Of a stretch of 64,000 nucleotides of DNA, positions 6,287 through 64,000 are shown one piece after another. Origin of the DNA: Prorocentrum cordatum (lineage: Eukaryota > Sar > Dinophyceae > Prorocentrales > Prorocentraceae); NCBI GenBank assembly GCA_963575745.1, contig CAUYUJ010016072.1, positions 298,501 to 362,500 of the forward strand. The letters run 5' to 3'. How positions within the stretch are numbered: position 1 is the first letter of the stretch; each line of letters opens with the position of its first letter. Made by a program: the position numbers and the translations under genes. The notes under the pieces are model-generated. The model had not been told where the DNA came from. It ran no database searches and saw nothing but the letters and a program-made list of their open reading frames with translations.

Positions 6287-7306
6287 TTATTCATCTCCTT
6301 GCCGTCGGCGAATCCATTCAAGGGTAGCATGAGCGCGGCGACTGTGTGGGGTATCTACGATGTTCCTGAAGTTGTGCTGCATGATAGCCGTTGGCGGAGA
6401 TGGTAGTGCTGGCGGAACGTTTTGTATTCGCGGGCGTTTCTTCGGCGTTTCGCCCGCGAGGTCGATGAACGTATCTCCATCTCCTCCTTGATCTGATGGT
6501 GGTAATCCGCCTCCACCGCCGTCTCTTCCTTCATGTGGTGGTCCTTCGTCCCCTCCTCCTGGTCCTGGTGGCCGTGGTCCGTCAGGAGGTGGGGGTTGGT
6601 CAGCTGGAGGTTGTCCTGGCGGTGGTGGTGGCTGGTTGCCGTTCATGGCGTTGAGCACCTGTCCCCAGGGCGCGAGCTCTGATGCAGTAGCGCGTCGTAA
6701 ATGTCCTCGGTTGACCTTGACGGTGGTGGAACGGTGGCTGACCCATACGTTCGATGTGCCCTCGAAGCCGATGATGATGCCGGGTCCGTGCCACTGCAAA
6801 GCCCACTCGCGCTTGGGCTTGCCGTTCCCCCTCCAGTAGTATACCTGGTCCCCCGTCTGGTAGACATCCGACGCGTGCTGAGCTCCATCCGCGCGCGATC
6901 GTGCGAGTAAAGCCCGGGATAGGGACTGGTTGAAACGCAGATGCTGGATAGACGTCTGGGCGGCCTTCACGATGGCAATCCTCTCGGAGAAGGGCTTGTC
7001 GGAGACCACCCTCTCGTGTAGCGAGAACCTCCCAGCGTTGTCCAGCAGGCAGTAGGGTAGTTGAAGGCCACGTCCGAGTACCCACTGTGCCGGTGAATAC
7101 CCACTGGCATTGACTGGGCTGTTCATAGCCCAGCAGACAGCGGCGAGCAGCCACTGGATCTTGTGGGCGTTCGCGGGCTGGTCGAACCTGATGCTGAACT
7201 GGTCGATCAGCTTCCTGGCGTGGACCTTCCACATGCCGCCGTGCCTTTCCACGGTGGCGTTCTGTTGCGGCGTAGCCGCGGCAGTAGTCATAAGGCGGCA
7301 GCCCAT
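6287..7306 (-). pseudogene. copia integrase, C-terminal half
   Basis: The frame begins inside the integrase core (MGCRLMTTAAATPQQNATVE) and supplies the third catalytic acid, the Glu of NATVER. It continues through a C-terminal binding region (LQWHGPGIIIGFEG..VWVSHRSTTVKVNRGHLRRA) into a Pro/Gly-rich linker. It is one frame off from the upstream gag-integrase frame, overlapping it at 7288-7306, so the catalytic D, D and E are split across a frameshift. It ends in TAA at 6287-6289, after which the same frame stays open into reverse transcriptase. Confidence 0.88.
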
Positions 7307-9387
7307 GACTCGCTCTCAAACTCGCTTCCCCCATCGAAAAGTACCCGTTGTGGTGCCCCAAACGGTGTAATCCAAACCTGCAAAAGCTTCGCGAATACAA
7401 CCGAAGGGTGTCTCGAAGAAACTGTACCACATAAGGTAAATCCAGAAGCGAGGTCGACCACATTGAGGAAAATCACCTGGTTGCCGGCGTAGTCGGCAAT
7501 AATGAACAAGTCCACTCCTATGGAGTCGTTGAAATCCCTATCTAGCTTGATTCTCCCAGGTAGGCGCGGTAGGGGTCGCTGATGGGCGGCGCAGACTTCG
7601 CAGTACAGGTTGAGAGCCATCTCGACCGCTCTTTGGGATCCACCCGTCACTCGGATAGCCCGGGCCAGCGCGTCGTTGGCAGGGTGCCCCGTGGTGACGT
7701 GGAGCTGCAATATGGCGGACTTGAGCGCCCGCTCCTCCGCTGCCGTTAAGGCTGGCTCGGCAGGGGCTGCCGGGACAGGCACTGTCCTTCTCGCGGCTCT
7801 TCGTCTCGCTGGTTCCGCGGGGTTTGCCTCGCGGTGCTCGGTCTTGTTCGTCTTGCGAAGCTGCTTGACCAGCGCGGCGACGAGCTTGTCGGTGTAGTTC
7901 TCGCTGTCCTTGGCAAGCTTGCCGCGGGCCTCGACGTGCTTGTGTAGGCCGTCACAAAGCTTGCGCAGCGAGTTGTCGACCCCGTAGTGGTCGGTGATGA
8001 TCCCCCACGGCTTCTTGATCGCGTCCCCCTTCTTTGTCTGCAGGCCGTAGGCGCAGCCATCGAAATCGATTATGCGCGGGAGCTGGTCCTTCAGCTTCTT
8101 CGCGGTGTAGTTCTTCTTCTGGTCCCAGCCGTCGCAGTAGCGCGGCCACTCGAAGGAGACCGCTAGCTGGCTGCCGGACTCCACGTGGTTCTGATCGTGG
8201 ACCTGCTCGGTGATGTTGGCCTGGCGGTGCGAGCGACCTCCGCCGCCTCGTCCTCCGCCCTTCTGCTTGGCATTCGGGGCGAACTTCCGAGCGCCTGGTG
8301 TCGGGCACTTCTTGTCACCGGGCCAGTGCCCCGCTTCGCCGCAGTCCCAGCACTTGGAGTTCTTCTTGCGCTGGTCCACGCGGCCCTGTAGCTTGCCCGC
8401 GGGTCGGCGCTTGGGCGAAGCCTTCCCGCGGCCCTTGATGGCCTCCCGGGCCGACCGCATGGTCGCCATGGCTTCGGGAATCGCGGCGAGCTCCGCCGCG
8501 GCGGCCTCCACCTTGGCAGAGTCGCCCCTGTCGAACACCTCGCCGAGGTCGTAGTTGGACTGCTCTAGCTCGGCGCTGAAAGCCTCGAGCTCCTGGCGCA
8601 CGATGTCCTGGACGTCTGCCTCCGTGTCGTTGTCGTCGCCGTCCTCCGAGTCTTCGTGCTCGTCCTCTGGCTCGTCGGCGACGTTGGCTGAACGCGCTCG
8701 GCTTGGCGATGAGCGCTGCCAACTACTGTTTGATCGCTGCGGCCACGGTCGTGACGGCAAGCTGGCATGCCGTTCCGACGTATGGATATCAGGAAACATG
8801 CGCACCAGCAGGCCCCTGATGCGCTGAAATGAGTAATGCTCGTCCGGCAAGTAGCCTACGACGCGCTCACGGCGCTCGGCCGTGAGCCCAGCCTTGCGCA
8901 GCAGGAACCAGCCGGCCACGTCGTCAAGCGTAGCGAGGTCAACCTCGTTCTCGCGTAGTTGTTGTAATCCCGCATCGAATCGCACGAGCCAGTCCGTCAT
9001 GCGTTCTCCACGGCGGCGATGATGCTGAGCCGACTCGAAAAACTTCTCTAGCGTCTCTCCCTTCTGTACCGGCTTTTGTTGGCCTAGGTTTGTCTCGAGA
9101 TGCTTCAGCACATTCTCGATGCCCTTCTGGTTCCGATCGCGCTTCTTCTCGTTTGCCTCCTTAATGTCGGCGTCCGGCGGCGGGTGGAGTTCCTGCTGCG
9201 TCATGTTGAGTGCAGCCGATCTGGCGGTACCCGTCAACCTCAAGACTAACTTCGATGCCAAGCTTTGTGTCACTTCCAGGTTCTCGCTGAGCTTCCACAA
9301 TTTAACTTCTTGCTTGTAATCTCGCCACTTCGCTGGATCTCCATTCCAGCTTGGTATCACTGACTGGTTATGATTGAACTCCGTCAT
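7288..9387 (-). pseudogene. copia gag, zinc knuckle and integrase N-terminal half
   Basis: The first ATG of this frame (9385-9387) starts a gag-like protein (MTEFNHNQSVIPSWNGDPAKWRDYK..) of 699 residues. A zinc-knuckle sequence CWDCGEAGHWPGDKKC (about 8305-8352) has spacing CX2CX4HX6C, two residues longer than the usual CX2CX4HX4C. Integrase follows: the HHCC zinc-binding part (HVTTGHPAND .. CEVCAAHQ, about 7590-7715) and two of three catalytic acids (IGVDLFII, then LFDGGSEFES). The frame then stops within 20 codons because of a 1-nt shift; the next frame carries on the integrase. Between knuckle and integrase there is no DTG/DSG protease motif, only a conserved-looking block (FDGCAYGLQTKKGDAIKKPW). 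The gag, knuckle and integrase assignments rest on motif order. Confidence 0.9.
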
Positions 9388-9389
9388 TT

Positions 9390-9968
9390 TGTCTACGAAT
9401 GAACTGTAAGGAATACCAAAATACGAAATGAAATTGAAATCAAAGTCGATGCCGTAATCGATGTCGGCGCCTGCCGTGTCGATGAGCTGGTAGGGGATGT
9501 AGACGTTGGGCTTGTCGCTGTCGCTGACGGCACTGATGCTGAAGATGTCGGCGCTTGCCCATGTAGGAGATAGGCTGTAGGGGATCTCGGCGCTTGCCGA
9601 TGTTGAGGGTAGGCTTCCGGTGAAGTCGCTGACGTCACTGGTGCTGTCGCAGGTGGTGTTGAACTTGTAGAGGCAGGTGCTGGCGTCGCTGACGCTGTCG
9701 CTGAACTCGCAGGGGCAGGCGCTGGCGTCGCAGACGCTGGCGTGGGAGAAAGTGTTCGGGATGTCGGCGCTTGCCGAGGCAGAGAGCTGGCAGGGGATAT
9801 AGGCGTTGGGCTCTGCGCTGTCGCTGACGGCGCTGATCACGAATGTGAAGATGAACACTGCGCGGCGGCAGAGCTGGACGGCGCTGGCCGTCGATTCCGT
9901 GGGCAGATGAGTCGCAGACGTCGTCGTGGAATATGTAAGGCCCGAAGGCCGGGGCAGCGAGCCTCGCT
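9390..9968 (-). other. open leader of the copia element built of degenerate repeats
   Basis: Between the primer-binding site and the gag ATG the minus strand is open in the gag frame for about 190 codons without any ATG. It encodes repeated phrases such as SDSxxPNxYIPxQL and SASAEIPYSLS. The repetition is in the DNA as well (GTCGCTGACGGCACTGAT-like words around 9490-9850). It may be an untranslated leader that stays open because of its repeat, or a gag extension using a non-ATG start. Confidence 0.6.
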
Positions 9969-9979
9969 CCAAGCTACCA
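9969..9979 (-). other. primer-binding site
   Basis: On the minus strand TGGTAGCTTGG begins 3 nt inside the 5' LTR. It would pair with a tRNA 3' end of ..AAGCUACCA; GCUACCA is the 3' end typical of initiator methionine tRNAs. Assigned by position and the leading TGG; the primer tRNA itself is an inference. Confidence 0.7.
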
Positions 9980-34611: not shown

Positions 34612-34752
34612 CTCTCGATGTGCAACCTGCGTGGTGCAATCTGTGTATGATGCAACCTGTGTGTTGCGATATGAATGGTGCAATCTAGACGATGCAACCT
34701 GTGTGGCGCAGTCTATACGGTGCAACCTTCCTGGCGCAGCCTGTGTATGTTT
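34612..34752. repeat. about 15-bp tandem repeat (GTGCAACCTGTGTG)n
   Basis: Nine or so diverged units, such as TGCAACCTGCGTGG, TGCAATCTGTGTAT, TGCAACCTGTGTGT and CGCAGTCTATACGG. Confidence 0.75.
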
Positions 34753-34890
34753 CTACCAGGCCAGCCCTCGAACCATCTAGTCCGAGAAATCGGGGGAGAC
34801 CCCCTGGTGCGGGCGCAGCTTCGGGAAGCATCCAGCGCGGTGACCTCGGAGTCGCCAGAGGTCTGCGCATGCCCGGACTGCTCGGCACCG

Positions 34891-41916: not shown

Positions 41917-42121
41917 GCTTCCTCTTCACACCGCAGTTCTGCACCGCGTTGTCGCTGCCCGACTGCGCGTTCTGCTACCCTGGGACCCGGAAGCCGTTTG
42001 TCTCCTCGGCGTTCGTTTGGTGCGTCTTCTTCGCGTTGACCACGCCCGTCTTTCGGTTTCGTTCACGCAGCTCCTTCTGGGTTGCCTGCTCGTTTCTCTA
42101 TGTCCGTGGTGGCCGTAGGGG

Positions 42122-42285
42122 TTCAATGACTTCGAGTTCGACGTACGTGCCTGGAAAAAGTACGTCGCGGAACGCCCGTATGGTTCCGCTGTTCTGGCTG
42201 CCGCATGGCTGCTGGGAGTTCGTGGCTTACCGGCCGTGTGCACGCCCTGCGTTACCGGGTGCCGCAGTTCTGCTTGACGTGGCTA
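42122..42285 (+). CDS. possible exon of an unrecognised gene
   Basis: One plus frame reads FNDFEFDVRAWKKYVAERPY and on through an Ala/Leu/Val-rich, membrane-like segment to CTPCVTGCRSSA and a stop. Codon and amino-acid use is more gene-like than the surroundings. It lies directly upstream of a copy of the A-rich element that forms intron 1 of the SET gene (42292-42450), so it may be an exon interrupted by that element. It matches no family I know, and no partner exon was identified to the right. Confidence 0.25.
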
Positions 42286-42288
42286 TGA

Positions 42289-42450
42289 TACAGGAGGGGA
42301 AAAACACACAGACACAATGAATCATCGATTCCCAGGAAAAGATGGGAAAGTATGGGAAGTGGGGGGGAAGACAAAAACCCAGAAAATATTGGAAAATATG
42401 GGGAATCCTTTTGTTTGTGTGTATTTATTTGTGTGTCCCAGTTTCCCTTT
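42289..42450 (+). mobile_element. A-rich introner-like element, copy 1
   Basis: CAGGAGGGGAAAAACACACAG .. AGTGGGGGGGAAGACAAAAACCC .. TTTGTGTGTATTTATTTGTG TGTCC. It matches the first intron of the SET gene over its whole length. The ends are imperfect inverted repeats of A/C-rich against G/T-rich sequence. CAG occurs at both outer edges (42289-42292 region, and just after TGTCC), consistent with a 3-nt target duplication. Strikingly AT-rich against its surroundings. Confidence 0.6.
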
Positions 42451-42589
42451 AATGATACTGGTGTGTGTTGCCCCACGTTCCATTCTGGCCGCGTTGCGCC
42501 CAGTTCCGCTCTGAGCCGGGCGCCGCTCGCTTCGCACGGCGGCCCGTCTTAGCTCGCACGGCGTTCGGCTCGTCTTCGCGCGCCCGCGT

Positions 42590-45755: not shown

Positions 45756-46948
45756 ATGCCCACAGGCGGCGCCGCCGGCGCGCCAGGCGTGGAAGCGAAG
45801 GCCGATGGCCGCGGGCTGGCGGCGGGGGGCCGCGTGGTCCTGCGCGAGGAGCCCGGCCGCGGGGTCGCGGCCTTTGCCGCCAGGGACCTGGCGGCCTCGG
45901 AGCTCGTCCTGGAGGAGTCAGGAGGGAAAGAAACACACAGACACAATTAATCGTCGACTCCCCAGAAAATATAGGAAAATATGGGAAGTGGGGGGGGAAG
46001 ACAAAAACCCAGAAAATATAGGAAAATATGGTCAATATTTTTATTTGTGTGTATTTATTTGTGTGTCCTGGGGCCCCTTCAAGGAGGAGGCGCTGCTGTC
46101 GTCGGCCCTCGGCGCGGAGGCCGCCGCGGGGGCCCCCGGCGGCCCCTGCCGCGAGCTCTGGCGGGCGCTCCTGCGGCAGGAGCGCGCGGGGCGCCTGGGC
46201 GCCTTCGAGCCCGCGGGGCACCTGGGGGCGCTGTGCGCCCTCCGGGCCCTGGGCCCGCGGCGGTGCCGCGAGGCCGTGCTCACCAAGACTCGGGTCGGGC
46301 GAAAGGGGGGGATTGGGAAAGGGGGGGTTACGAAATTTGCTGCATGCAGCTGGTTTCGGCCTCGCCGAGGGGCCCATTCCTCGATACATGGCGCCTCCGG
46401 CGCCGGGAGGCGCCGGGAAAATCAGCTACGTGAGCTGATTCTCAAACCCCCCCTTTGCTATCCCCCCCTTTCGCCCGACCCGACAGACCACCGGGGACCC
46501 CGCCGCGCTGCCCTCGGAGGGCGACGCGAGGCGGGAGGCGAGGGTCCTGCGCGCGGCGCTCGGCGAGGGCCTCGTGCCGCCGGAGGCCTCCCAGCTGACG
46601 CCGGCGGAGTTCGGGGATGGACAGAACCCCCAACAGTGACACGTCGATTAGTGAATTGTCCGTTTTCGGTTCTCGAGAGGGCGCCGTGGCCGTTATTTTC
46701 CAGGCTTGCGCCCGCCAGGTTTGGGCCTGAGGTCGTTTTCACTAAACCACGTTTTACTAAAGGGGGGTTTGTCCATCCCCGAGGAGTACGCGAGGCTGCG
46801 GCGGGTCTTCCAGCTCAACGGCTTCCGCTTCAACGGGCCGCTGGAGGAGGGCGACGCCGGGTACGACGTGGGCGAGGTCCTCTTCCACGACATCAGCCGC
46901 TTCAACCACTCGTGCGCGCCGAACCTCAGCTTCGACCTCCGGTGGAGC
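45756..46948 (+). CDS. SET-domain (SMYD-like) protein, exons 1-4
   Basis: The family is protein-lysine methyltransferases using S-adenosylmethionine. Reading frame and family motifs place exon 1 at 45756 to about 45917 (first ATG; GRGVAAFAARDLAASELVLE, the SET N-terminal motif), exon 2 at about 46069-46287 (GPFKEEALLSSALG .. REAVLTK), exon 3 at 46487-46606 (TTGDPAALP .. SQLTPAE) and exon 4 at 46784-46948 (EYARLRRVFQLNG .. FHDISRFNHSCAPN). FNHSCAPN is the cofactor-binding signature. Removing introns 2 and 3 restores an uninterrupted frame across a 4-bp repeat (AGAC, GGAG). Exons 5 and 6 lie at 49648 and 57306; the joined protein is about 270 residues. I see no MYND finger and no Cys-rich post-SET end. 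The true start could be upstream, because the frame is open to 45369 and a CCCACAG acceptor-like word sits at 45760. Confidence is high for the SET identity and moderate for exact borders, especially intron 1. Confidence 0.78.
45918..46068 (+). mobile_element. intron 1 of the SET gene: A-rich introner-like element, copy 2
   Basis: AT-rich insert between VLEE and GPFKEE. It matches 42289-42450 throughout (AACACACAGACACAAT; AGTGGGGGGGAAGACAAAAA; TTTGTGTGTATTTATTTGTG) and has an internal duplication of CCCAGAAAATATAGGAAAAT. The frame changes from exon 1 to exon 2, so the insert must be removed from the mRNA. The borders are uncertain by a few bases and no GT-AG pair fits. Confidence 0.65.
46288..46486 (+). 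mobile_element. intron 2 of the SET gene: introner with 24-bp terminal inverted repeats
   Basis: 46290-46313 (TCGGGTCGGGCGAAAGGGGG..) and 46460-46483 are perfect 24-bp inverted repeats, and pairing continues imperfectly inward for about 20 more bases. AGAC stands at both edges (46286-46289, 46485-46488). Splicing out one copy plus the insert restores ..LTKTTGDP. in frame. Within the repeat the only choice with an AG acceptor starts AC, a non-canonical donor. Confidence 0.82.
46607..46783 (+). mobile_element. intron 3 of the SET gene: introner with terminal inverted repeats
   Basis: Left end TCGGGGATGGACAGAACCCC (from 46611) and right end (46762-46782) are inverted repeats: 13 exact bases, then one indel. 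GGAG flanks both sides (46606-46609, 46783-46786). A GA-AG intron (46607-46783) joins PAE to EYARL in phase 0. Both inverted-repeat introns begin TCGGG, suggesting related elements. Confidence 0.78.
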
Positions 46949-47627
46949 AGGGGTCGGGGGCGGCCTGAGCGACCCCTGGCAACTCGACCCCGTCCGTGAC
47001 GGCCCCCTCACCTCGCTTCACGACGTGGGCAGGCGGCCGGAGGGGAGCCTCGACGGCGCGGGGGTCGTCACGGGAGGGGCCTGTCACAGAAAGGGTCGGC
47101 CAGGCCGCGCCCGAAGGCGGGGCGCGTCCGTCTTCGTCGTCGTCCTGCTGCGTCTTCTGGGAAGAATTATCCCAGCCAGGGTTGGCCAGAGGGATTCGTT
47201 GGGAGGGAGGGCCAGGGGGGTTGCCCGGGATAAGCCGGAGAGTTGGTCGGGGTAATTCTTCGATGGGTCGTTCTCTCCACGAGGCAGGGTGCTACTCCAC
47301 CCCCTCTTACGAGGAAAAATCCACCCCGACCCCGATAATCGGCGTTTGCTAAACGGCCCCGTGCGTTTACTAAACAGCGCTTTCTTGTTCGATTCCTTCG
47401 TCGGGTGCGTTTACTAAACGGTTGCGTTGTCGGGGTGCTTATATTCGGGGTTGATCTCCGGCCCTCTATTCTTGCCCAGAGGGTCTCTTGCGGGGCAGGG
47501 CGCGAGTGACAGTGAGCAACGACCCCCTGTCCCCTCGCGTGAGGGCCACGGGCGCCAGAGGCCCGCCCGGGGGGGGCGGCCGCCCTTTCCCCCCATGACG
47601 ATCCTTATCGATATTCCATTCTTCAGG

Positions 47628-47768
47628 GGGGAAAGACAGGCAGAGATTCAAATCATCGCAGCTTCCCATGAAACGATGGGAAACTATGAGAAGTAGAGGG
47701 GAAGGCGAAAGTAGTCCAGAAAATATTCGAACATATGGGAAATCCTGGGTTTTGTGCCCATTGGGAAG
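47628..47768 (+). mobile_element. A-rich introner-like element, diverged copy 3
   Basis: TTCAGGGGGGAAAGACAGGC .. ATGGGAAACTATGAGAAGT .. CCAGAAAATATTCGAACATA TGGGAAATCC aligns in order with copies 1 and 2 but with many substitutions and a lost right end. It lies inside intron 4 of the SET gene. Confidence 0.5.
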
Positions 47769-47795
47769 CCCTTGCGGCCAGTGCCGCCGACCCTC

Positions 47796-47874
<79 letters not shown>

Positions 47875-47913
47875 TGGTGACGGCAACGGCGACGGCGACG
47901 GCGTGGTGCAGAG
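47796..47913. repeat. (GAC)n/(GGC)n triplet array
   Basis: GAC units followed by GGCGAC hexamers for about 118 bp. Confidence 0.93.
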
Positions 47914-48099
47914 TCCTCAGGGATGATTCGTGGGGCCTCGTCGGAGCGCGCTCGTCGTCGTCGTCGCTCGTCGCCCGTCGCTTGTCGCTCATCGTCGTCG
48001 TGCGCGCGAGCGCGGCTGTGGTGCCGCAGCCGCACGGCGGGGGGGGTGGGCGTTACGTGGTATACCCCCCCCGTGCCCCCCCCCATGACGCCCCTCATC

Positions 48100-48680
48100 G
48101 CCGATGATAAAGAAACGCGTTCTTGCACCCCCCCCCCGGACGACGCCCAAGCGGACTTTCCAACCGGCAGCCCCGAGCACGCAAGGTCGACCAACCTAGA
48201 GAACACAACGCCCAGCAGTTGTTGCAACTACAACAACCGCAGCAGTGACAACGACAGCAGCAACAATTCGGAAGACATCGAGACAGAATTAGGGGCTAAC
48301 TTGGTCAGGAGATCGACGCGCCCAGCCAACGCCAGAGCAAAGAGAGCGGGTTTGCCGTATATCAAAATCGAACGATTGACCGATGGCAGCGACGCGCCGC
48401 CATTTGGGAACTTCCGTTGCACGACACGCGCCACGCCCAACGAAGACACGGAGGGCAGCGAAACATATGGGACCATGATGTCGCCAGTTTCTCGGAGTTT
48501 ACGAACTTGGTGCAGAACAGCGCAAGAGCACCCAACGACATTCGTTGTCGATGGTGGTTTCATCTCGCCTGCGTCAGATACATGCGGCACAGGTTGGAAG
48601 GACAACGCATTACCCCACACATGCGACGATTGTGTTTGCAAGCTTGGTCGAGGCAAAATGAACACCGACACCACACGGTG
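48100..48680 (+). pseudogene. protein-coding remnant, family not recognised
   Basis: Frame one gives DDAQADFPTGSPEHARST .. LGANLVRRSTRPANARAKRA. From about 48400 a second frame is more protein-like (FSEFTNLVQNSARAPNDIRC, WWFHLACVRYMRHRLEGQ). The polar, Asn/Ser-rich first part and helical basic second part suggest a retroelement-type protein, but no diagnostic motif is present. A 1-nt shift would join the frames. Confidence 0.3.
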
Positions 48681-49199
48681 TCAGGGTCCTGGCCCCCCAG
48701 CGCTGATTTTGAAGGGTCCCGTTCCCGCGGATCTGTGCGTTTTGCTTCGTTATTTCCCTTCTTCTTGCGTGTTCATGCATCTCCTCCTCATGCATCCGCT
48801 CGGGACGATTGTGGATTCCCCAGAACGCGGTCGACGAGTTGGAGCTGATGGGAAGGCCCCCGAGGGTCCGCAAACCTCAATAAACCTTCTAACAGAAAAC
48901 ATGTTTCCTCCCGAGCTTGCCACCCTCCGCTCGGGAAGTAGTAATCTCCGACGCATCCAGATGGAAAACAGCAAGGAATCGGAGGCCCGAGCTTGCAAAC
49001 ATGGATCCCATGATTCCGCATTCCTGCGCTTCCCCTCTCTCCCTCCCCCCTCCCCCCCTCCAGGGACTTGACCCCCACCAGGGGGCCTTGTCACGTATTG
49101 AGTATTGAGTGTTGAGCCCTTCCTCCCTCTCGTCATCCTCCTCCCCTGCCCCTTCCCCTCGGGAGCTACTCTGCGGCTGGGCCGGGTTTGCGGTTGGCC

Positions 49200-49340
49200 C
49201 GGGCTGTGTGTCGTGTGGACGCGGCGGCGACCCCGCAGCGGGCGTTCAAGATTGAATGCCGCCAGTGCTTTAGAATCAATCGACCAGTGAGGAACGATTT
49301 GAAGATCGAAACGTTGCCGATCGTTGAAGATTGAATGGCC
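49200..49340. repeat. dispersed fold-back-type repeat
   Basis: GTGTGGACGCGGCGGCGACCC then GGGCGTTCAAGATTGAATGCC, closed about 100 bp later by GTTGAAGATTGAATGGCC. The first part matches about 33133-33185, and the GGCGTTCAA word also recurs at 44271 and 44538. Confidence 0.55.
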
Positions 49341-49647
49341 CACGTGGTGCCAGAGACCAACGCCAAAGTCGTCACGACAGGAATTTGCCGTAGTTTTTGT
49401 TGGCGGTCCCGGGGTCAGGTAAGGGCCCCCAGAGCAGGACAAGTCAGAAATGATTTCAGTCGGGGCTTGGCACCCCGGGAGCGTCGTCATCCTGCTCCTC
49501 GTGCCGGTGTCGCTGTCGGTTTCGAAGTTCGGTTCGACCGCAGCGGTCCCCCGCTCCTCCTCCTGCTCCTGCTGCTCCTGGTCATCCTCGTCCTCCCGTG
49601 TCTGCTCCCCCCTCGAGCGTCGTCCCCCCTGCCCCTTTCGGTGGAGC

Positions 49648-49707
49648 GAGCAGCGGGGCACCGTGGTCAACCGCGTGACCGCCACGCGCGCGGTCGTCAC
49701 GGGCGAG
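49648..49707 (+). CDS. SET-domain protein, exon 5
   Basis: Twenty codons reading EQRGTVVNRVTATRAVVTGE, the segment that in SET domains leads into the GEEL-x-I-S-Y motif. The left border lies in the CGGTGGAGC repeat shared with exon 4. The right border lies in the AGGAG shared with exon 6 (49706-49710 and 57304-57308). Joining to 57306 gives VTGEELRISYL in frame, which is strong evidence that the two distant pieces belong together. Confidence 0.72.
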
Positions 49708-49719
49708 GAGCTCCATCGA

Positions 49720-50290
49720 GATCGTCTCGGCCCCCTCATACCCTCCCTCCCTCCACTCTCTCCCTCCACGCCTCCCTCTTGGGGAGGGAGGGAGGGGTGG
49801 GAGGGGTGGAGGGAGGAAGCGGAGGTCCAGAAGAAGGGACGCAGAACAAGAAGAAGGAGCAGAAGCAGAAGGTCTTCTTGATGCTGACTCCTCTTCTGCG
49901 GTCCCTCCTTACCCTCCGATACTGATACTCCCTCCCTTCCCCTCCCATCCTCCCCCTCCCTCCCTTCCTCCCTCAACTCGCCCCCCTTCCTCTCCCTCGT
50001 CGTGTTTGTCCCTCCCCCTCCTCTGCGTCTTCCTCTCCGCGTCCCCCCCTCCCCTCCACTCCTCTTCTCCGTCCTCTTCTTTTCCTCTTTGGATCCCCTT
50101 CCCACTCCTTTGACAGAGCTTGAAGCGCTCGGCTGCGATGCTTCGGAGCAGGCACGCTGAGCAGAGTCAGGGGGGACGGACGACTATCATAGTAGCGGCA
50201 ACGAGGTTCCGCATCGGCGCACCGCAGGCAACATCACGGCCCGAGGCGCAGAGGCCTGCTCCAGAGGAGCCTCGACAACTATCCCTTATA
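49720..50290. other. CT-rich stretch, no supported gene
   Basis: Pyrimidine-rich (CCCTCCCTCC) from 49735 to 50115 with a short inverted GAGGGAGGGAGGGG segment at 49785. The frame leading into the GT8 gene is open but has no domain. Confidence 0.5.
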
Positions 50291-50297
50291 TCCCCCC

Positions 50298-50319
50298 TCG
50301 GTAGCCGTTTTGGCTCAAG
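50298..50319 (+). other. relict dinoflagellate spliced leader
   Basis: TCG then GTAGCCGTTTTGGCTCAAG matches the 22-nt dinoflagellate spliced leader (D-CCGTAGCCATTTTGGCTCAAG) at 20 of 22 positions. The leader is normally added only to mRNA by trans-splicing, so its presence in DNA 40 nt before an ATG marks an mRNA that was reverse-transcribed and reinserted. Confidence 0.88.
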
Positions 50320-50359
50320 GGGCGGCCCCCCCTGGAGCGCAGCGGCTGCGGCTGCGGGC

Positions 50360-52744
50360 ATGGCTGGGGGCCATCGCGCCGAGCGCGAGTGGCACGGCGG
50401 GGGCCGCCCCGCCGCGGCCTCGCTCGCGGCCGGGCCGCTGAGGCTGCGGTGGCCCGCCGGCTGCGGCCTGGCCGCTGCGGCGGCCTGGCTGCTCGGGCGC
50501 GGGCGCCGGAGCCGGAGCCTGGCGCGGCTGCTCGCGGCCCTCGGGGCGGCCGCCTGGGCGCGCTCCGCGGCGCTCTGGTGCCTGGGCCTGGCGGCGCGCC
50601 GGCGCCGCCGCTTCCTGTGCGTGGCATCGCCGCTGCCGGGGTCGGCCGTGAAGCTGGCGCGCCCGCTGGGCCCCGCGGCGGGCGCGGCGCGGCGGTGGCC
50701 GTGGTCTGCGCTGCCCGAGCGCTGGAGGGGCTTCTGCCCGAGCTGCAAGCGGCCCGTCGAGCTGTTCCAGTGCGAAGAGTGGCACCCTGCGACGGCTCTG
50801 CAGGACGCCCGGGGCAGATATGCCTACGTGATCTGTCTCTGGGGCTCCTCGGTCGAGTTCCTGATCGGCGCGATGGTGCTCGGGCGTTCCCTCGTGAGGT
50901 CGGGCTCCAAGCACTCGCTCGTGTGCCTGTGCGCAGACGACGTGCCGCCAGGCTTTGTGCCCGTGCTTTCGCACTTCTGGGACTGCCGCCCCGTCGCCCA
51001 CGTGCAGGCCTGCATGCGGACCCTGAGCTTCTCCGAGGAGGCGGACCGATTCGAGAAAGTGTTCACCAAGTTGCGTTGCCTCGAGCTTGTGGAGTTTGAG
51101 AAGGTCCTCATGATGGACATCGACCTCTTGGTTCGGTCCAACATTGACGAGCTGTTCGAGCTCCGGCCCCCCGCCGCTATGCGGCGCGGCAACAACACTT
51201 TCAATTTGAAGACCGGAGACCAGATAGACGGTCGCCCGTTCTTCCTGGGGAGCGACGGTACCAAGTGGTCGTGGGGCCAGGGTACTGGAATCAACGCTGG
51301 GGTGATGTTGCTTCAGCCAGATCTCGCGGTCTTTGAGGAGATGCTCCGCGAGATTCAGGAGCCCAATCATCCTGAGCACTGCAAGGGAAACGGCCCCGAG
51401 CAGGACTTCTTGAGCAGGTTCTACGCGGACGCGCCGTGGACGCACATCGGCGTGGAGTACAACTTTCAGCTTCATCAGATGTACTACGCCCTGCACCCAG
51501 ACCGCGCCCCGCGTGCGGAGCGCGTTCGCCTGGCCGTGGAGCGGGAGCGCGTGAAGGTGGTCCACTTCTCTGGGGAGCCCGCCGCGAAGCCGTGGCACCG
51601 CGTGCTCGACAGCCGCTGGGCAGGATATTGGCCGGAGCGTGCGCGGGACGGCGAGTACGCGGAGCTCTTCGCGGAGGAGTTCCTTGGGCACCTGTTGTGG
51701 GTGAAGAAGGATCGGGCCGCGTTCGAGTCCTCCGGCAGGGGGCAGAACAGCTGGGACGTGTACGGCATGAGCCTGGACTCCCGCGGGCGCATCTGGCGCA
51801 GGGCGTGGGGCGAGGAGGACAAGCCCGCGGAGATCGTGGGAACGCCAGCATTCGCCGCGGAGGGCGTCGCGCAGTTCACGGCGACCGTTCTGCGGGAGTG
51901 GTTCGACGATCTACAGGCGCTCGAGGCCGAGCTGGGCTGCGACCTCCGCCAGAGGCTCGAGGACATCTGCGCTGTGAGACGCTACGGAGTCCCTCTCGCG
52001 TCTCGGCAGGGGGCCGCGCCCGGTCAGAGCGACGCTGCCGCTGGAAACGGCCACGTGCTGCACCAGGCCAGGGGCCTCGAGAGGGGCACGATCGAGATCG
52101 AGGGCGGGGAAGCGATCGGGCAGCTTGCGAGCGCTGGCGCGCCCAGCGCCGCTGAGGCCGTCGCACACCTGACGCTGGAGCGCGCGTGGCGGCGGCACGG
52201 TGGCCCAGGTGGTTGGTGGACAGACAGCGCAGGCCTGGCTGGCGACGATGCCGTAAAGGTTTCCGTCGTGTGCGGCGCGCCCGGGGGCGCGCGGTTTGTC
52301 ACGTTCACGGAGGGCGGAGCGGCCACCTTCACGGAAGAGGACCCCGACCTGGCCGGCGTCTTCGCCAAGGTGGTGGGCCAGCACGCCCCGCGGCAGTTCT
52401 CGGTGCACGAGGACCCAGACAGCGCCCTGGCGTCGATGCACATGTGGGTGAGCGGGGTGCCCGCTGGCTCCGCCGTGCTGCTGGCGCTGCTGCGGCTGCC
52501 GCCCGAGGCCGTGGCGGCCGCGCTGGCGGTACTGGCCCCGCTGGGTTTGCTTCGGGCGCCGCCGCCCGAGGCCTGCGTGGCACTGGCGGCGGTCGGGCTG
52601 CGGCCGGAGGGCGGCGGCGAGGGCGCGGAGCAGCAGGATGGTCGTCCGGCTGGGCGGCCGCCCCGTCGTGGAGCCGAGGAGTTCTCGGTCCACGCCTCGG
52701 AGGACGTCGCGTACGCCTCTGCTCAGCTGCTCCACGTCGCCTGA
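50360..52744 (+). CDS. GT8-family glycosyltransferase, intronless retrogene
   Basis: A 794-residue protein starting at the first ATG after the spliced-leader relict (40-nt leader); the frame is open upstream but that part precedes the mRNA start. Residues 20-80 hold two Ala/Leu-rich hydrophobic segments ending in RRRRR, likely a membrane anchor, so a Golgi-type type II topology is plausible. FCPSCK (about 125) may bind zinc. Residues about 150-410 are a GT-A fold of the GT8 (glycogenin/galactinol synthase-like) kind: YAYVICLWGSSVEFLIGAMV, the metal-binding DxD as MDIDLLV (about 253), GINAGVMLLQPD (about 313), EQDFLSRFY, and HFSGEPAAKPW (about 401). The sugar donor is probably a UDP-sugar; the acceptor is unknown. 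The C-terminal 380 residues have no recognised domain. The frame is intact over 2.4 kb, suggesting recent insertion or selection. No poly-A tail is visible downstream. Confidence 0.88.
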   Translation: MAGGHRAEREWHGGGRPAAASLAAGPLRLRWPAGCGLAAAAAWLLGRGRRSRSLARLLAALGAAAWARSAALWCLGLAARRRRRFLCVASPLPGSAVKLARPLGPAAGAARRWPWSALPERWRGFCPSCKRPVELFQCEEWHPATALQDARGRYAYVICLWGSSVEFLIGAMVLGRSLVRSGSKHSLVCLCADDVPPGFVPVLSHFWDCRPVAHVQACMRTLSFSEEADRFEKVFTKLRCLELVEFEKVLMMDIDLLVRSNIDELFELRPPAAMRRGNNTFNLKTGDQIDGRPFFLGSDGTKWSWGQGTGINAGVMLLQPDLAVFEEMLREIQEPNHPEHCKGNGPEQDFLSRFYADAPWTHIGVEYNFQLHQMYYALHPDRAPRAERVRLAVERERVKVVHFSGEPAAKPWHRVLDSRWAGYWPERARDGEYAELFAEEFLGHLLWVKKDRAAFESSGRGQNSWDVYGMSLDSRGRIWRRAWGEEDKPAEIVGTPAFAAEGVAQFTATVLREWFDDLQALEAELGCDLRQRLEDICAVRRYGVPLASRQGAAPGQSDAAAGNGHVLHQARGLERGTIEIEGGEAIGQLASAGAPSAAEAVAHLTLERAWRRHGGPGGWWTDSAGLAGDDAVKVSVVCGAPGGARFVTFTEGGAATFTEEDPDLAGVFAKVVGQHAPRQFSVHEDPDSALASMHMWVSGVPAGSAVLLALLRLPPEAVAAALAVLAPLGLLRAPPPEACVALAAVGLRPEGGGEGAEQQDGRPAGRPPRRGAEEFSVHASEDVAYASAQLLHVA

Positions 52745-53430
52745 CCACGGGCGCATCGGCGGAGGGAGCGGGGGGATGGAGGACCCAGGCCAGAGCCTGG
52801 GGCCTGGTGGGATTCAGAGCGCGTGGCGGGTCCCAGACTCCTCATCCTCTTCCCTTGTCACCCCCTTTGGCGGGGAGGAGGGGCCCAGGCCTCCAGCGGA
52901 TTGATGTTTTCAGTCCAGGCGTTTGTTCCTCGATTCCAACGTCTGGGGGTCACTTTGGTTCCCAGGGCACTGATTCAAACATAGTCCGGGACTGTAGATA
53001 TTCCAATGGAAGAGGCCCAGACGGGGCCCGCGGATGGAACCATATTTCCATCGAGTTTGTGGGATGTTGATCGAGGCGGCCAGATTGGGGTTGAGCGATG
53101 GAGCGGAAACAAGTAGCAGTTCTTGTCCAGTTGGGTCTGGGTTCGTTGCTGGTATCGCCGCGGACATCGCCCGCTTGTAACGGGAAAGCGCCCGCCCAAC
53201 AGCGGCCCTTGTCGGTTTGGGGCAGCTTTTGTTGCTGTTGGGCGTCGCCCTCGTTTTTCCAAACGTGGGGCGTTCAAAGGGGAGGAGGAAAGGAAAGGAA
53301 AGGTGAACCATACGCCCTAGGGCGCGTCGGCGCGGCTCAGGCGAGCACGAAAGACTGGTCGATCAGAAAGCACACGAACTCCATCTTTGCCACATGCTCG
53401 AACAGCGTGCGGATGTAGTTGTTTGGCCCA
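52745..53430. other. no gene seen
   Basis: 3' flank of the retrogene. Short frames only, with no poly-A or repeat structure noted. Confidence 0.45.
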
Positions 53431-53432
53431 TT

Positions 53433-54365
53433 CTAGCTGGGGGGCCCGATTTTTCGAATGTACATGTCGTTCACAGGCGTCAGGGTTCCGGGGTAAAACA
53501 CAGAGTCCCGCAGAGGACATTGTTCTCCTCCTTGCGCAGCATTGCAGTACAAGTCCAACTGGTGCTTCAGCAGAATGTCGGTGATAGGCTTCTGCGCAAT
53601 TCTCCGGCGCACCTCTTCATTTGAGACGCGGGATACCATGGAATGTTTGATCCCACAAATAGACCTCAACATCCGGTCTTGGGCCCCGTTCAAACGCCTA
53701 CGCTCTGCAGCGTTCAACCAGACGGTGCTGAGGCCGCACAACATCTTCGGCACCACAATGGCGTTGAACAGCTCAATTTTCCTGTGTAAAGAGATGGATG
53801 TGTGGGCCCCACGCTTGAAAGCGGCGAGTGCCATGCCAGTTCGCCTCGTTATCTCTGCGCATGCCCGACCATCGCTGCTGATTGTGGTGCCCAGGAAAGA
53901 CAGCGTGTCTGAAGCCTTGCACCGGACTCGTAGTAACTGAAGCTTGCCCCAGTGCATCTCCAGCCCCACTTGCGCCGCAGAGTCGCATACTGCTTCAAGC
54001 CACTGTTCAACGTCGCCGGCGGTCCTGGCCATGAGCAGAGTGTCGTCAGCGTACACGAGCTGTCCGAATTGGCCTGGCCGCGCTGGCTGCAATGCAGATT
54101 CTGCGTCGTGCATCACAACAGACAGTGAATTGACCATAATGAACAGAAACGGCGAGAGCGGGCAGCCCTGGAAGATGCCGGACCGCTGGCCCTTCTTCTC
54201 CGACGCGACGCTTCTGTCACGAACAACGAAGGTGCGATCTTTGTGTATGCTTTGAATGACATCCAACACGAACTTGGGAAGGCCAAATCTCTCCAGAGCG
54301 GCGAGCATTGCAGAAGTTTTTCACTGAATCGAATGCCTGCTTCCAATCTAGTGCCAACGCAAAAA
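53433..54365 (-). pseudogene. LINE reverse transcriptase fragment 2 (motif A to C-terminus)
   Basis: Read leftwards. It opens in RT motif A (LALDWKQAFDSVKN, about 54320-54362), shifts frame by one base, and continues as MLAALERFGLPKFVLDVIQ .. IFQGCPLSPFLF .. LVYADDTLL, the YADD catalytic site (about 54040), then a typical post-RT region (LSFLGTTISSDGRACAEITR .. VVPKMLCGLSTVWLNAAE ..). It belongs to a non-LTR element of the endonuclease-RT type. Its fingers region is missing: the sequence to its right belongs to a different element. Confidence 0.85.
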
Positions 54366-56048
54366 ATGAACCCACCCAAGTACACTGCTTCCCTGACGGA
54401 TGTGATATTTTCGCCCGTGGGTCTTCTCACTTCTCCCATTGATGATTTGTATCATTTGCGCTGTTTTGTCCGAATTGAGTTCCATGCCATATTTACGGCC
54501 TTCCGACACAATGGATTCAAGCATGAGCTGTAAATTCCCGGGGTGTTGCGATGTCAATAGAGTGTCGTCTGCGTACAAAATGTCTTTGGTGACAACATAA
54601 TCTTGCTCTGGTTGCAGCTCCAGCGAGTCCAAAGCGTCGTGCAACATCACGCTTTGAACAGCAATGAACAAGTAGGGGCTGAGGGGGCAACCTTGGGCGA
54701 TACCTGCAGGTTGCTTTCTCTCCGAAGAAGTCCCACAGTGGTCAACAATAGTGAAATACCGCTCTGCGTATGTCCCGCGAATCATATTGACAACTGGCGG
54801 TGGTAGTCCAAATCTTTCCAGGGCCATGCACATGTTGTCGGGCTTCAGGCGATCGAAGGCTTTCGCCCAGTCTAATAATGAAAATAATAAGCCGTCCCCA
54901 TTGTTCATATGAGCTGCATCCACCATCCTCCTGACTAACATCAAGGCGTCTGACGTGCCACGATTTGGGCGGAAACCGAATTGGGATTCTCGCATTCTCC
55001 GCTCGCGCCCACCATCTAAGAGTCTCTGGTGTAACATCGAAGCCAATGCTTTGTAGCCCACGGCCAAAAGGGATATCGGTCTGTAGTTGCTCGGTAGAGT
55101 AGCGCCCCCTTTCTTGGACAACGGCACCACATTGGCTCGCCTCCACGTGGATGATATGTTCTTCGCCTCCCAGCATTGTTGGCACACGCGCAGGAGTGCT
55201 CCGCAGGCATATGTGTCTCCAGCAATAACTTTCCAGAACTCCTCGGGCACGTCGTCAGGTACAGCTGCTTTCTTATGTTTGATCTTCTTTATCGCTGTCT
55301 GGAGCTCTTCTAAGAAAAACGTGTCGGTGTTGATCGCCAAAGTGGCCCCCAGCATCTCGGTGTCCGTGGGCACCACGTCGGCAAAGCATACTCGCCATTG
55401 CACCTCCTCGAAATACTCTGCAAGGGTGTCTGGCCTGGCCGAAGTATCGGACAGATTCCCACTCAAGTCGTTGACACCCACGTGCTTGCGAGGAGCATGT
55501 CTTCGTAGTTGCTTGACCGCGTCCCAGCTGCCAGAAGAAATTAAACGATCCGACCAGGCCGCACGATCGTTCTTCCCAGCTTTCCGTATCAGTCTGTGTA
55601 GCCGGAGCTCGTTTTTGTAATCCCCTGATTTGCGGTAGGCGTTCCTCTCGGCAATGAGTTCCAAAGTAGACGCGCTTGTCCCGGGCTTCCGCGGTCGTAT
55701 TTCACAGCTTGGAAAAGCGGCAGCGGCGGCACCCAAAGGTTGCTGTATATTCTCCGCGGCCTGGTCCAGAGAAGGGGTCAAAGGTAGGTCCACGATGGCA
55801 TTTGAAAATGCCGCAGTGAAGATCTCCTGGGTATGCTTGTCTGCCAGAGCACCAACATTCTTCTTCTTCTTCTTCGGCGCGCCGGCCCGTGAGGATCGTT
55901 GAAATTCCAATTTCAGCGTGGCGCATGTTAGAAAATGATGACTAGTAAGGGTAGCTGCCCGTGTAGACCAGCATTCTTCCATGCATGCAAGTATCGAAGG
56001 ATGGCATACAACGTGATCGATTTGAGAGAAGCATGCCGCAGGCGCCAA
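54366..56048 (-). pseudogene. LINE endonuclease tail and reverse transcriptase, fragment 1
   Basis: A frame of 566 codons without a starting ATG. Residues 8-15 (SQIDHVVC) are the end of an AP-type endonuclease domain. A linker follows, then the RT domain: NYRPISLLAV (321), FGFRPNRGTSDAL (357), LLDWAKAFDRL (391), QGCPLSPYLF (452), ILYADDTLL (490), MELNSDKTAQM (522). A frame change near 54440 is needed to read on into YLGGF, and the homology then stops at about 54365, where fragment 2 starts again at motif A. The element is 5'-truncated near 56050, so a dead non-LTR retrotransposon copy. Confidence 0.9.
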
Positions 56049-56067
56049 AGTTTAACACATTATATCA

Positions 56068-56086
56068 CGAGCCTGCCGCAGGCTCC
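56068..56086. repeat. short perfect hairpin at the LINE 5' border
   Basis: GAGCCTGC-C-GCAGGCTC, about 20 bp outside the truncated LINE. A related CATGCCGCAGGCGCC word lies at 56034. Confidence 0.55.
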
Positions 56087-56106
56087 GAATTTTTCGTTAA
56101 ACCAAT

Positions 56107-56418
56107 GTGGGCAAGTCGCAAATGGGTCGCGGGTGGGTCGTTGTTGGGTCGCGGGGTGGGTCGCATGTGGGTCGCGGGTGGGTCGAGGGGGGGTCGCGGG
56201 TGGGTCGCAAGCGGGTCGACAGTGGGTCGCGCGGGTGGGTCGCGGGGTGGGTCGCGGGTGGGTCGCGGGGTGGGTCGCGGGTGGGTCGCGGGAGGGTCGC
56301 GGGTGGGTCGCGGATGGGTCGCGGGGTGGGTCGCGCGGGTGGGTCGCGCGGGTGGTTTACGGGGTGGGTCGCAAGTGGGTCGCGGGTGGGTCGCGCGGGT
56401 GGGTCGCGGGTGGGACAA
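56107..56418. repeat. 11-13 bp minisatellite (GGGTCGCGGGT)n
   Basis: About 27 units of GGGTCGCGGGTG with GGTCGCGCGG and GGGTCGCAAGT variants. All frames through it are artefacts. Confidence 0.93.
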
Positions 56419-57054
56419 CGACAATAAACAGCAACATCATCAACGCAACAACCAGAATCCTCACCACGGATCCCCTCTTCAGCCACGCACCCAGGGACAA
56501 TGAATGACCGTTCGGCCCCCTCACTCTGATATCCCTAGCCTTTGACAGGGTCGGCGGGGGTGCCAGCATATGGCCTGCTGTGCGCAGGCTTACCATCCCT
56601 GCGAAACAAACACAATCCAAACTGCTCTTTGCGTCTAAATCTGAATCATGCACGGGCACTCCGCGATCACGTTGCATTTGTTATTGACAGGGACAGCGAG
56701 GGTGCTGGCACGTTGCTTGCTGTGAGCAGGCCCACCAGACATCATGATTTCACACTCTGCGCGTGCCTCGAATGTCTCGCACCTGACGAGGTTGGAGCAT
56801 GCGGTACACTTGGCGCACGTGTATCACGTGGCACATACGTTTGGGCGTCCGGGGCGCGTGGCGCGCCTGGCACGCATGGCGCGCCTGGCACGCATGGCGC
56901 ACCTCGCCTGTGCGCCGCGCACTTGGTGTCCGTATTTGCTCCCGGTAGCTGCCCATCCAACGACGACCGCTAGTGTGTTGAGACTCGGGTACTACTGATG
57001 TGTTGCCAGGGCGGCTGGGGGTGAGCCAAACAGTTTGCGTCTGGTGGAGGTGTC
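56419..57054. other. no gene seen; short GGCGCGCCTGGCACGCAT tandem
   Basis: Three diverged 18-bp units at about 56857-56910 (GGCGCGCCTGGCACGCAT). The rest has no recognised content. Confidence 0.5.
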
Positions 57055-57180
57055 TTGATCCCTATCCCTGTCCCGATCCCCCCATCGTGGCCCTCCATCG
57101 TGACCCCCATCGTGGCCCCCATCGTGACTGCGCAAAGCTGTTCAGGGTCGTCTGCCACAAGGGTGTCATGACGGCCTTAG
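57055..57180. repeat. dispersed repeat, copy 2 (pair at 40110-40210)
   Basis: Shares the GATCCC-rich start, AGCTGTT(C/T)AGG and the CTGCCACA..GGGT..TCATG end with 40110-40210. CCCCCATCGTGG is repeated internally. Confidence 0.7.
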
Positions 57181-57305
57181 GGCGCGGTGAGCCCGGCCCC
57201 CCCCATCGGGGCCCGAATAGGTGTTTTGAAGCCACGCGCAACATGCTTCCGTCATTGCTGCCGGAAGAAGCATGCTTGCAAAATCCTTGTCTCCCCCCGT
57301 CTCAG

Positions 57306-57395
57306 GAGTTGCGGATCTCCTACCTGCCCCGCGAACCGCCGCTGTCGGCGGCGGAGCGCAGGAGGCAGCTCCTGGAGCTCCCGGGGGGGCGCTGA
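57306..57395 (+). CDS. SET-domain protein, exon 6 (last)
   Basis: ELRISYLPREPPLSAAERRR then QLLELPGGR and TGA. The first seven residues complete the GEEL-x-ISYL motif of the SET domain, and AAERRRQLLE resembles the helix that follows it in SMYD proteins. It is preceded by CCCCCGTCTCAG, a pyrimidine tract and AG acceptor. The Cys-rich segment that usually follows is absent. GGAGCTC recurs about 88 bp later (57463), so another small intron is possible, but it would also lead straight to a stop. Confidence 0.7.
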   Translation, partial: ELRISYLPREPPLSAAERRRQLLELPGGR

Positions 57396-62569: not shown

Positions 62570-62604
<35 letters not shown>

Positions 62605-62837
62605 TTACTACTACTACTACTACCACTACTACCACTACTACTACTACTACTACGACTACTGCTACTACGACTACTGATACAACAACTATTACATTTACTA
62701 CTACTACTACTACTGCGACGACGACGACGACCTCTACTACTACTGCTACTGCTATTACTGCTACTACAACTAAAATTGCTACTTCTACTTCTACTACTAC
62801 TTCTACTACTACTTCTACTACTACTACTACTACTACG

Positions 62838-62881
<44 letters not shown>

Positions 62882-63019
62882 GACTGCTGCTACAGAAACT
62901 ACTACACTTACTACCAACACTACTACTTCTGCTGCTGTTGCTGCTGCTGCTGGCACTACTACCACTTACTACGACTACTAGTATTACTACTGCTACTTGT
63001 ATTACTAATCGCACTACAG

Positions 63020-63088
<69 letters not shown>

Positions 63089-63126
63089 TTTCTACGACTG
63101 CTACCACTACTAGTACTACCACTATA

Positions 63127-63184
<58 letters not shown>

Positions 63185-63262
63185 GTACTACTACTGCTGC
63201 TGCGACTATTGCTACTGCGACGGCTACTACTACTACTACTACTACTACAACTACTACTACTA

Positions 63263-63354
<92 letters not shown>

Positions 63355-63474
63355 GTACTACTACTACTTCTACTACTGCTACCACGACTGCTACTACCAG
63401 TATTACTACTGCTTTTAGTATTATTAATCTTACTACAGCTACCACTGTTACTACTATTACTATTACTACTACTA

Positions 63475-63533
<59 letters not shown>

Positions 63534-63573
63534 CTAACTGCTACTACTACTGCTACTATTACTACTGCTACTG

Positions 63574-63606
<33 letters not shown>

Positions 63607-63779
63607 TCACCACTACTACTACTACTACTACTACTATTACTACTACTACTACTACTATTACTACTACTACTACTATTACTACTACTATTACTACTACTAC
63701 TATTGGTACTACTACTACTACTCTTACTACTACTACTACTACTACTACTACTGCTGCTACTACGACTACTGCTACACCA

Positions 63780-63836
<57 letters not shown>

Positions 63837-64000
63837 GCCTGCTGCTGATGCTGGTGCTACTACCACTACTACGACTACTACTCTTACCTTTGCTACTACT
63901 GTCACCAATCAGACTACAGCTACCTTTACTATTACGACTACTACTACTATTACAACCACTATTAGTATTACGACTACGACTACTACTAGTACTGCTGCTC
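62525..64000. repeat. (TAC)n triplet array, at least 1.47 kb
   Basis: TAC/ACT/CTA units with scattered GAC, TGC, TTC and TAT interruptions run to the window edge. ACTACTACTAGTATTACTACT with GCTAC.. and ATTAAT(C/T) variants recurs at about 62980, 63395 and 63900, so a longer unit of roughly 400-500 bp may be superimposed. Thr, Leu and Tyr runs encoded here are artefacts. Confidence 0.97.

Follow-up and report, generated by a model that had tools for sequence, protein, structure and literature searches.

Candidate intron gains from three MITE-like element families in a SET-domain gene of Prorocentrum cordatum

Where do introns come from that begin and end in copies of the same short direct repeat? 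The question is raised by a SET-domain gene in a 64,000-nucleotide stretch of the bloom-forming dinoflagellate Prorocentrum cordatum (GenBank assembly GCA_963575745.1, contig CAUYUJ010016072.1, positions 298,501 to 362,500), hereafter the window. A first-pass annotation of the gene had proposed that at least three introns, sought among introns 2-5, were gained by insertion of elements and are spliced with AC/GA donors. Our analysis points to a related answer. With a probability of about 0.88, judged from sequence, three elements of the miniature inverted-repeat transposable element (MITE) type inserted in this gene, each with a 5-bp duplication, and are spliced as introns. The number of at least three stands; the set is introns 1, 2 and 3, and introns 4 and 5 are not supported as element insertions.

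Gene model and exon junctions

The gene model is as follows.

45756..45914, plus strand: exon 1, possible start ATG at 45756; placed by the homologue profile, boundary at the AGGAG duplication
45915..46083, plus strand: intron 1, GA-AG, both splice sites within the AGGAG duplication
46084..46287 (to 46293 if GT-AG is used), plus strand: exon 2, from the homologue profile
46288..46486, plus strand: intron 2, either AC-AG in register or GT-AG starting at 46294
46487..46606, plus strand: exon 3, from the homologue profile
46607..46783, plus strand: intron 3, GA-AG; the duplication supplies the donor, and the acceptor joins the terminal A of the element to the G of the duplication
46784..46946, plus strand: exon 4, which may end anywhere in a 9-bp repeat at 46939-46947
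46947..49645, plus strand: intron 4, 2.7 kb, bounded by the 9-bp repeat CGGTGGAGC
49646..49707, plus strand: exon 5, from the homologue profile
49708..57305, plus strand: intron 5, 7.6 kb, GA-AG, bounded by AGGAG
57306..57395, plus strand: exon 6 and stop, as in the first-pass and public models

When joined, the six exons read as one uninterrupted frame, 264 codons long, in which the SET motifs follow each other as the first-pass annotation had described, and the 264-aa product contains the SET core motifs (Pfam SET PF00856, E = 4.5e-6). Matches to PDB entries were weak (apical complex lysine methyltransferase, E 0.0015; SMYD3, E 0.023). Among 8,000 candidates scored, 11 proteins matched the product at E ≤ 0.01, the best of them with E 1e-69 and 58% identity. 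One match, P0009 ("unnamed protein product [Prorocentrum cordatum]"), is the public annotation of the same gene. Identity to the other ten is 49-60%, and nine of these align over 86-92% of the query and cover every one of the five junctions; the tenth, P0011, is a fragment spanning introns 3-5. Three of the ten carry EukProt TRINITY names and were taken for transcriptome assemblies, and for six the whole frame lies within contigs of 1.05-1.15 kb, as expected of spliced transcripts. Third-position G+C is strong in the joined exons. By these comparisons the SET-domain gene is real, and its predicted product is a SMYD-like methyltransferase.

The exon joints were evaluated with a profile of the ten homologues, P0009 being left out. 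Donor and acceptor were each shifted by up to 30 nt both ways, and every distinct product was scored. The direct repeats reported earlier, AGAC, GGAG, CGGTGGAGC and AGGAG, are present at introns 2, 3, 4 and 5, respectively, the repeat of intron 3 being in fact 5 bp (GGAGT). Collapsing one repeat copy restores the frame at all four, as had been claimed: the resulting product ranked 1 of 2,006 at intron 2, 2 of 2,103 at intron 3, 1 of 2,008 at intron 4 and 3 of 1,968 at intron 5, and products ahead of it at introns 3 and 5 led by just 0.1-0.4 bits. Intron 1, overlooked earlier as an element, is likewise a copy of a repeat, flanked by an exact duplication of AGGAG. Its duplication-defined joint was second of 2,157 (332.7 versus 333.0 bits), and the joint of the first-pass annotation was 27th (326.1 bits); the two yield LVLEEEALL and LVLEEALL, respectively. 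When only G[TCA]-AG borders were considered, the best choice at introns 1, 3 and 5 was GA-AG in register. At intron 2 it was GT-AG from 46294, 5.0 bits lower than the in-register joint, and at intron 4, within a loop variable among homologues, it was lower by at least 8.4 bits.

P0009 matches the window at 34747-34860 (100%), at 42113-42235 (97.6%) and at stretches of all six SET exons (89-100%). Compared with the homologues, it skips part of exon 2 and adds Thr-Arg at intron 2; by our reading, its donors and acceptors at introns 2-5 are GT-AG, GT-AG, GC-AG and GC-AG. Its two upstream exons (34747-34860 and 42116-42235) have no clear counterpart in the alignment of the other homologues and may belong to another gene. 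A search of the own genome for a paralogue that could serve as an empty-site control gave six matches among the 144 of 198 candidates scored, all on the contig of the gene itself.

Three repeat families

The inserted units and their flanking duplications are listed below.

45913..45917, plus strand: target duplication AGGAG (intron 1), exact 3′ copy at 46082-46086
45918..46081, plus strand: family-1 element, TCAGGAGGG..CCCCTTCA, 164 bp
46285..46289, plus strand: target duplication AAGAC (intron 2); the 3′ copy at 46484-46488 reads CAGAC, one mismatch
46290..46483, plus strand: family-2 element, starting TCGGGTCGGG, 194 bp, with 24-bp perfect terminal inverted repeats
46606..46610, plus strand: target duplication GGAGT (intron 3), exact 3′ copy at 46783-46787
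46611..46782, plus strand: family-3 element, starting TCGGGGATGGACA, 172 bp, with terminal inverted repeats

In each of introns 1, 2 and 3, the element and one copy of the duplication make up the entire intron, and no other intron sequence remains. Each of the elements has T as its first base and A as its last. The terminal inverted repeats noted earlier, 24 perfect bp in intron 2 and 13 perfect bp plus an imperfect extension in intron 3, were both recovered; when the end segments were shuffled 2,000 times with dinucleotide composition kept, no shuffle for either family reached the observed score. Introns 2 and 3 form end-to-end hairpins (z -11.1 and -7.9, respectively; 200 dinucleotide shuffles), and folding of intron 1 is weaker (z -3.0; 60 mononucleotide shuffles).

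Other copies were sought in the own assembly (4.13 Gb, 21,875 contigs). This search yielded 156 candidates for family 1, 82 for family 2 and 714 for family 3. The 40 scored for each were 92-100%, 91-100% and 97-100% identical, respectively, the SET-gene copy being included for families 1 and 2. The intron-3 element is 100% identical to a copy on contig C14498 over the 170 bases compared. For comparison of flanks, 39 other copies per family were fetched, to which three further family-3 copies from other loci were added (n = 42). Exact 5-bp duplications flank 30 of 39 copies of family 1 (five more with 4 of 5 bases), 28 of 39 of family 2 (one more) and 29 of 42 of family 3 (ten more). Mismatched flank pairs agreed in 2 of 1,482 cases for family 2, 16 of 1,722 for family 3 and 26 of 1,482 for family 1, where copies with identical flanks raise the number. 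The recurrence of the intron-2 and intron-3 elements with 5-bp duplications is beyond chance. Distinct flanks numbered 32, 38 and 37 for families 1, 2 and 3, fewer than the copies, so some copies lie in duplicated DNA. Stretches of at least 100 bp of the three families also occurred 11, 2 and 5 times (72-97% identity) in 79 loci fetched for other reasons, a biased sample, which indicates that the families are common. Viral contigs contained no exact stretch, terminal or internal, of family 2 or family 1.

What the sequences show directly is that each element belongs to a family, that it is flanked by a duplication and has terminal repeats, although weak ones for family 1, and that its removal restores frame and homology. 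Short length, terminal inverted repeats and a target duplication of constant length (5 bp) are MITE traits, and introns 1-3 are, by sequence comparison, copies of three short MITE-like families, that is, putative non-autonomous DNA transposons with terminal inverted repeats. As in introners, the intron lies within coding sequence and similar copies occupy many genomic sites.

Preference of the families for exons was assessed with a codon-position score on both sides of the collapsed site. The three introns of the SET gene score 14-16, which is expected and no independent evidence, since the model was trained on the exons of this gene. The score was computed for 90 distinct copies, all of them best-matching ones, in which four or more of the 5 bases are duplicated. 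It was positive at 16, versus 39 of 178 neighbouring control sites, and reached 10 or more at three (L031, L049 and L024). Most of the 90 copies therefore do not look exonic, and exon enrichment was not seen among them; a version with 120-base flanks agreed. The best coding strand of L031 differs between two scoring versions, and the frame of L024 looks like a retroelement.

Splicing, a second gene and alternative explanations

We propose that three non-autonomous MITE-type DNA transposons of three families would each have inserted into the SET coding sequence and created a 5-bp target duplication. The duplication and the element ends would then supply splice sites, and splicing would remove the element with one copy of the duplication. 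The elements would persist because splice sites from these two sources restore the protein. We infer the splicing in vivo, the selection and the order of insertions from these sequence features. Introns 1 and 3 would be spliced in register as GA-AG. Intron 2 would be spliced either as GT-AG, with the donor inside the inverted repeat, or as AC-AG in register. The GT-AG intron starts six bases further in, keeps the frame and adds two codons (Thr-Arg). The AC/GA donors proposed earlier are hence upheld in part: GA fits introns 1, 3 and 5, and AC at intron 2 is one option beside GT-AG. An AC donor as a firm claim was rejected, because the alternative from 46294 keeps the frame at a cost of 5.0 bits against the homologue profile and, by our reading, is the junction of P0009. 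The mismatch at 46484-46488 turns AAG into CAG at the 3′ splice site of intron 2; this could be an improved acceptor.

How the splice sites could arise can be expressed as a simple rule. A duplication starting with G gives an AG acceptor together with the terminal A of the element, a duplication ending with G gives a GT donor together with its initial T, and an internal AG|G[TCA] in the duplication gives both sites. Intron 1 (AG|GAG) and intron 3 (A+G|GA) conform to this rule in register; intron 2 does not. Applied to the SET coding sequence, the same rule predicts that an insertion would immediately create a G[TCA]-AG intron at 136 of the 794 five-base sites, and 12 of 75 distinct exact-duplication copies elsewhere conform on the given strand.

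A second gene containing family 2 was found by using the translated intron-2 element as a protein query, which gave one match among 15 candidates. This protein, P0012, is a P. cordatum lysine-methyltransferase-like protein (PF10294, E 1.9e-9) with METTL21C and METTL21A as top PDB matches, and its model translates the family-2 element. The element is located on contig C10225 (locus L126, 42900-43800) with flanks ACGTC/ACGTC. Collapsing it rejoins two frames as VVEVPVHVAPGLTVRVLEA; the segment aligned with it is VAVPVSAAIPPLVILEA, from a paralogue at C15190 (L127) that carries no family-2 element. The best G[TCA]-AG choice in this gene scores 141, keeps the frame and deletes 15 residues. Family 2 appears to occur in the coding region of a second gene, from which it may be spliced.

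Several observations weigh against intron birth from the three elements. Splicing of the SET gene is deduced from protein homology, not from RNA of P. cordatum, and the public model P0009 has junctions that differ from the repeat-collapse junctions and reads in a shifted frame between intron 3 and intron 5, across the SET core. The duplication of intron 2 carries one mismatch. Inverted repeats of family 1 are weak (102 of 2,000 shuffles were as good), and at intron 1 the joint cannot be fixed by the profile on its own, since four products come within 0.8 bits of the top score. In the METTL21-like gene, where scoring relied on a single paralogue, the in-register product was 58th of 3,498 (151 versus 158 for the best), and in a range from 50 nt before to 30 nt after the joint the closest AG acceptor lies 30 nt downstream. 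Of further copies inside genes, the search for which had been proposed earlier, one was found for family 2, in the METTL21-like gene; no second gene was confirmed for family 1, whose candidate L049 had no homologue among 75 candidates, or for family 3.

Three other explanations were considered. If the elements disrupted the gene and are not spliced out, it would be a pseudogene. In favour of this, transcripts were not seen, the frame is broken in the public model, and the cysteine-rich post-SET segment (HW.F.C.C..C), present in most homologues, was not found downstream of exon 6 in the rest of the window and the next 10 kb. The stop at 57393-57395 may thus not be the true gene end; the segment may be located further downstream or have been lost, and the gene may be longer or truncated. 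However, the joined exons are open, similar to homologues over most of their length and strong in third-position G+C, and we regard a pseudogene as improbable. The argument from the open frame is weakened by the intron-3 element, which looks recent given its identical copy elsewhere, so that decay may lack time to show. It is still harder to believe that introns 1-3 are older ordinary introns in which repeats were inserted later, the direct repeats being a coincidence of splice consensus. This is contradicted where element and one 5-bp duplication are the whole intron; it fits intron 5, whose AGGAG (AG|GAG) mostly equals the AG|G consensus of dinoflagellates, and may fit intron 4, a mosaic of repeats.

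Another explanation accepts the gene model and concerns the mode of excision. Intron 2 and the METTL21-like copy would be excised in register under guidance of the hairpin and independently of dinucleotides, as proposed for Amoebophrya. Neither site has an in-register GT/GC/GA-AG pair, and the terminal hairpin of intron 2 is very stable; yet both genes have a frame-keeping GT-AG alternative, which is 5.0 bits worse at intron 2 and scores 141 versus 151 in the METTL21-like gene. Such excision at these two sites is unlikely in our view. A more general form, in which family-2 elements are excised in register whatever the border dinucleotides, with the terminal hairpin guiding, appears slightly more doubtful. 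It would give AC-AG in the SET gene and GT-AC in the METTL21-like gene, where the distance to the nearest AG means that borders could be GT-AC if splicing is in register. If true, nearly any exon site could tolerate a family-2 insertion, the Amoebophrya type of splicing would extend beyond that parasite to a core dinoflagellate, and gene finders limited to GT/GC/GA-AG would overlook introns of this type.

Large introns, neighbouring features and known introners

Other features of the window include the following.

42290..42451, plus strand: another family-1 copy, not within the SET exons, flanked by ATGAT/ATGAT
about 47620-47746: decayed family-1 copy inside intron 4
50299..52744, plus strand: intronless glycosyltransferase-8 (GT8) open reading frame (ORF) with relict spliced leader, nested in intron 5
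53436..56048, minus strand: reverse-transcriptase ORFs (RVT_1) inside intron 5

Terminal inverted repeats were not above shuffle level in intron 4 (1,651 of 2,000 shuffles as good) or intron 5 (1,937 of 2,000). Intron 4 was rejected as a mobile unit, since among the 40 scored of 372 candidates only pieces of its right-hand 300 bp recur, never the whole. Nor do we claim that it is firmly non-canonical; its in-register product was the best and the G[TCA]-AG choice at least 8.4 bits lower, in a region where the homologue loop is variable.

The GT8 ORF in intron 5 (50360-52744) has 794 codons and lies on the same strand as the SET gene; its GT8 domain was detected with E 6.9e-9 in an 874-codon version. 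A 21-base match to the dinoflagellate spliced leader, with two mismatches, lies at 50299-50319 and ends 40 bases before the GT8 ATG. None of 100 shuffles had such a match. A relict spliced leader is the mark of a retrogene (PMC6050394). The GT8 gene is a nested retrogene. Near the end of intron 5, the region 56028-56414, with an 11-bp tandem array, recurs with approximately 79% identity in locus L075. Elsewhere in the window, minus-strand ORFs at 3023-9972 contain RVT_2 and an integrase core just below the cut-off, a Copia-like retroelement, and a degenerate TAC triplet array of 1.4 kb occupies 62570-63993.

Intron birth from introners is already known in dinoflagellates and has been published for P. 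cordatum. For this species, the passages of Dougan et al. 2023 considered here report an assembly of 4.15 Gb, 59.7% G+C, 23.8% GA donors and introner elements, the last defined by inverted repeats of 8-20 nt and direct repeats of 3-5 nt near intron ends (PMC10666404). Inverted and direct repeats and GA donors are shared with our case; those passages give genome-wide figures, whereas the present locus provides three families, a 5-bp duplication, frequent non-exon location and an out-of-frame public protein. Recent introner-made introns from many families, as here, are also attributed to dinoflagellates by Roy et al. 2023, as summarised in PMC11453091. Like the introners of Amoebophrya A25/A120 in the sections used of Farhat et al. 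2021 (PMC7789003), our elements have inverted repeats, a hairpin, short direct repeats that extend across the exon border, and a border whose position is uncertain. Unlike those, introns 1 and 3 allow GA-AG, and dinucleotide-free splicing is not established here. In the portions of Gozashti et al. 2022 compared (PMC9860276), introners have terminal inverted repeats and target duplications of 3-9 bp that supply one or both splice sites, and some insertions add codons, all of which resembles our case. Enrichment in genes is described there as usual, not universal; our sampled copies, which are the best-matching ones, show no exon enrichment. The parts consulted of the introner literature on dinoflagellates and Prorocentrum, outside the supplements, contained no description of these three families or of the SET gene.

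The SET gene offers a well-resolved instance of probable intron birth, in which three transposon families with their own target duplications and sister copies meet in one gene of a published genome. It also illustrates why automatic gene models fail at such sites: judged by the homologues, neither public protein is correct at the element, P0009 because of a frame shift and P0012 because it translates the element. The distribution of copies suggests that the source families are abundant general-purpose MITEs rather than gene-seeking elements.

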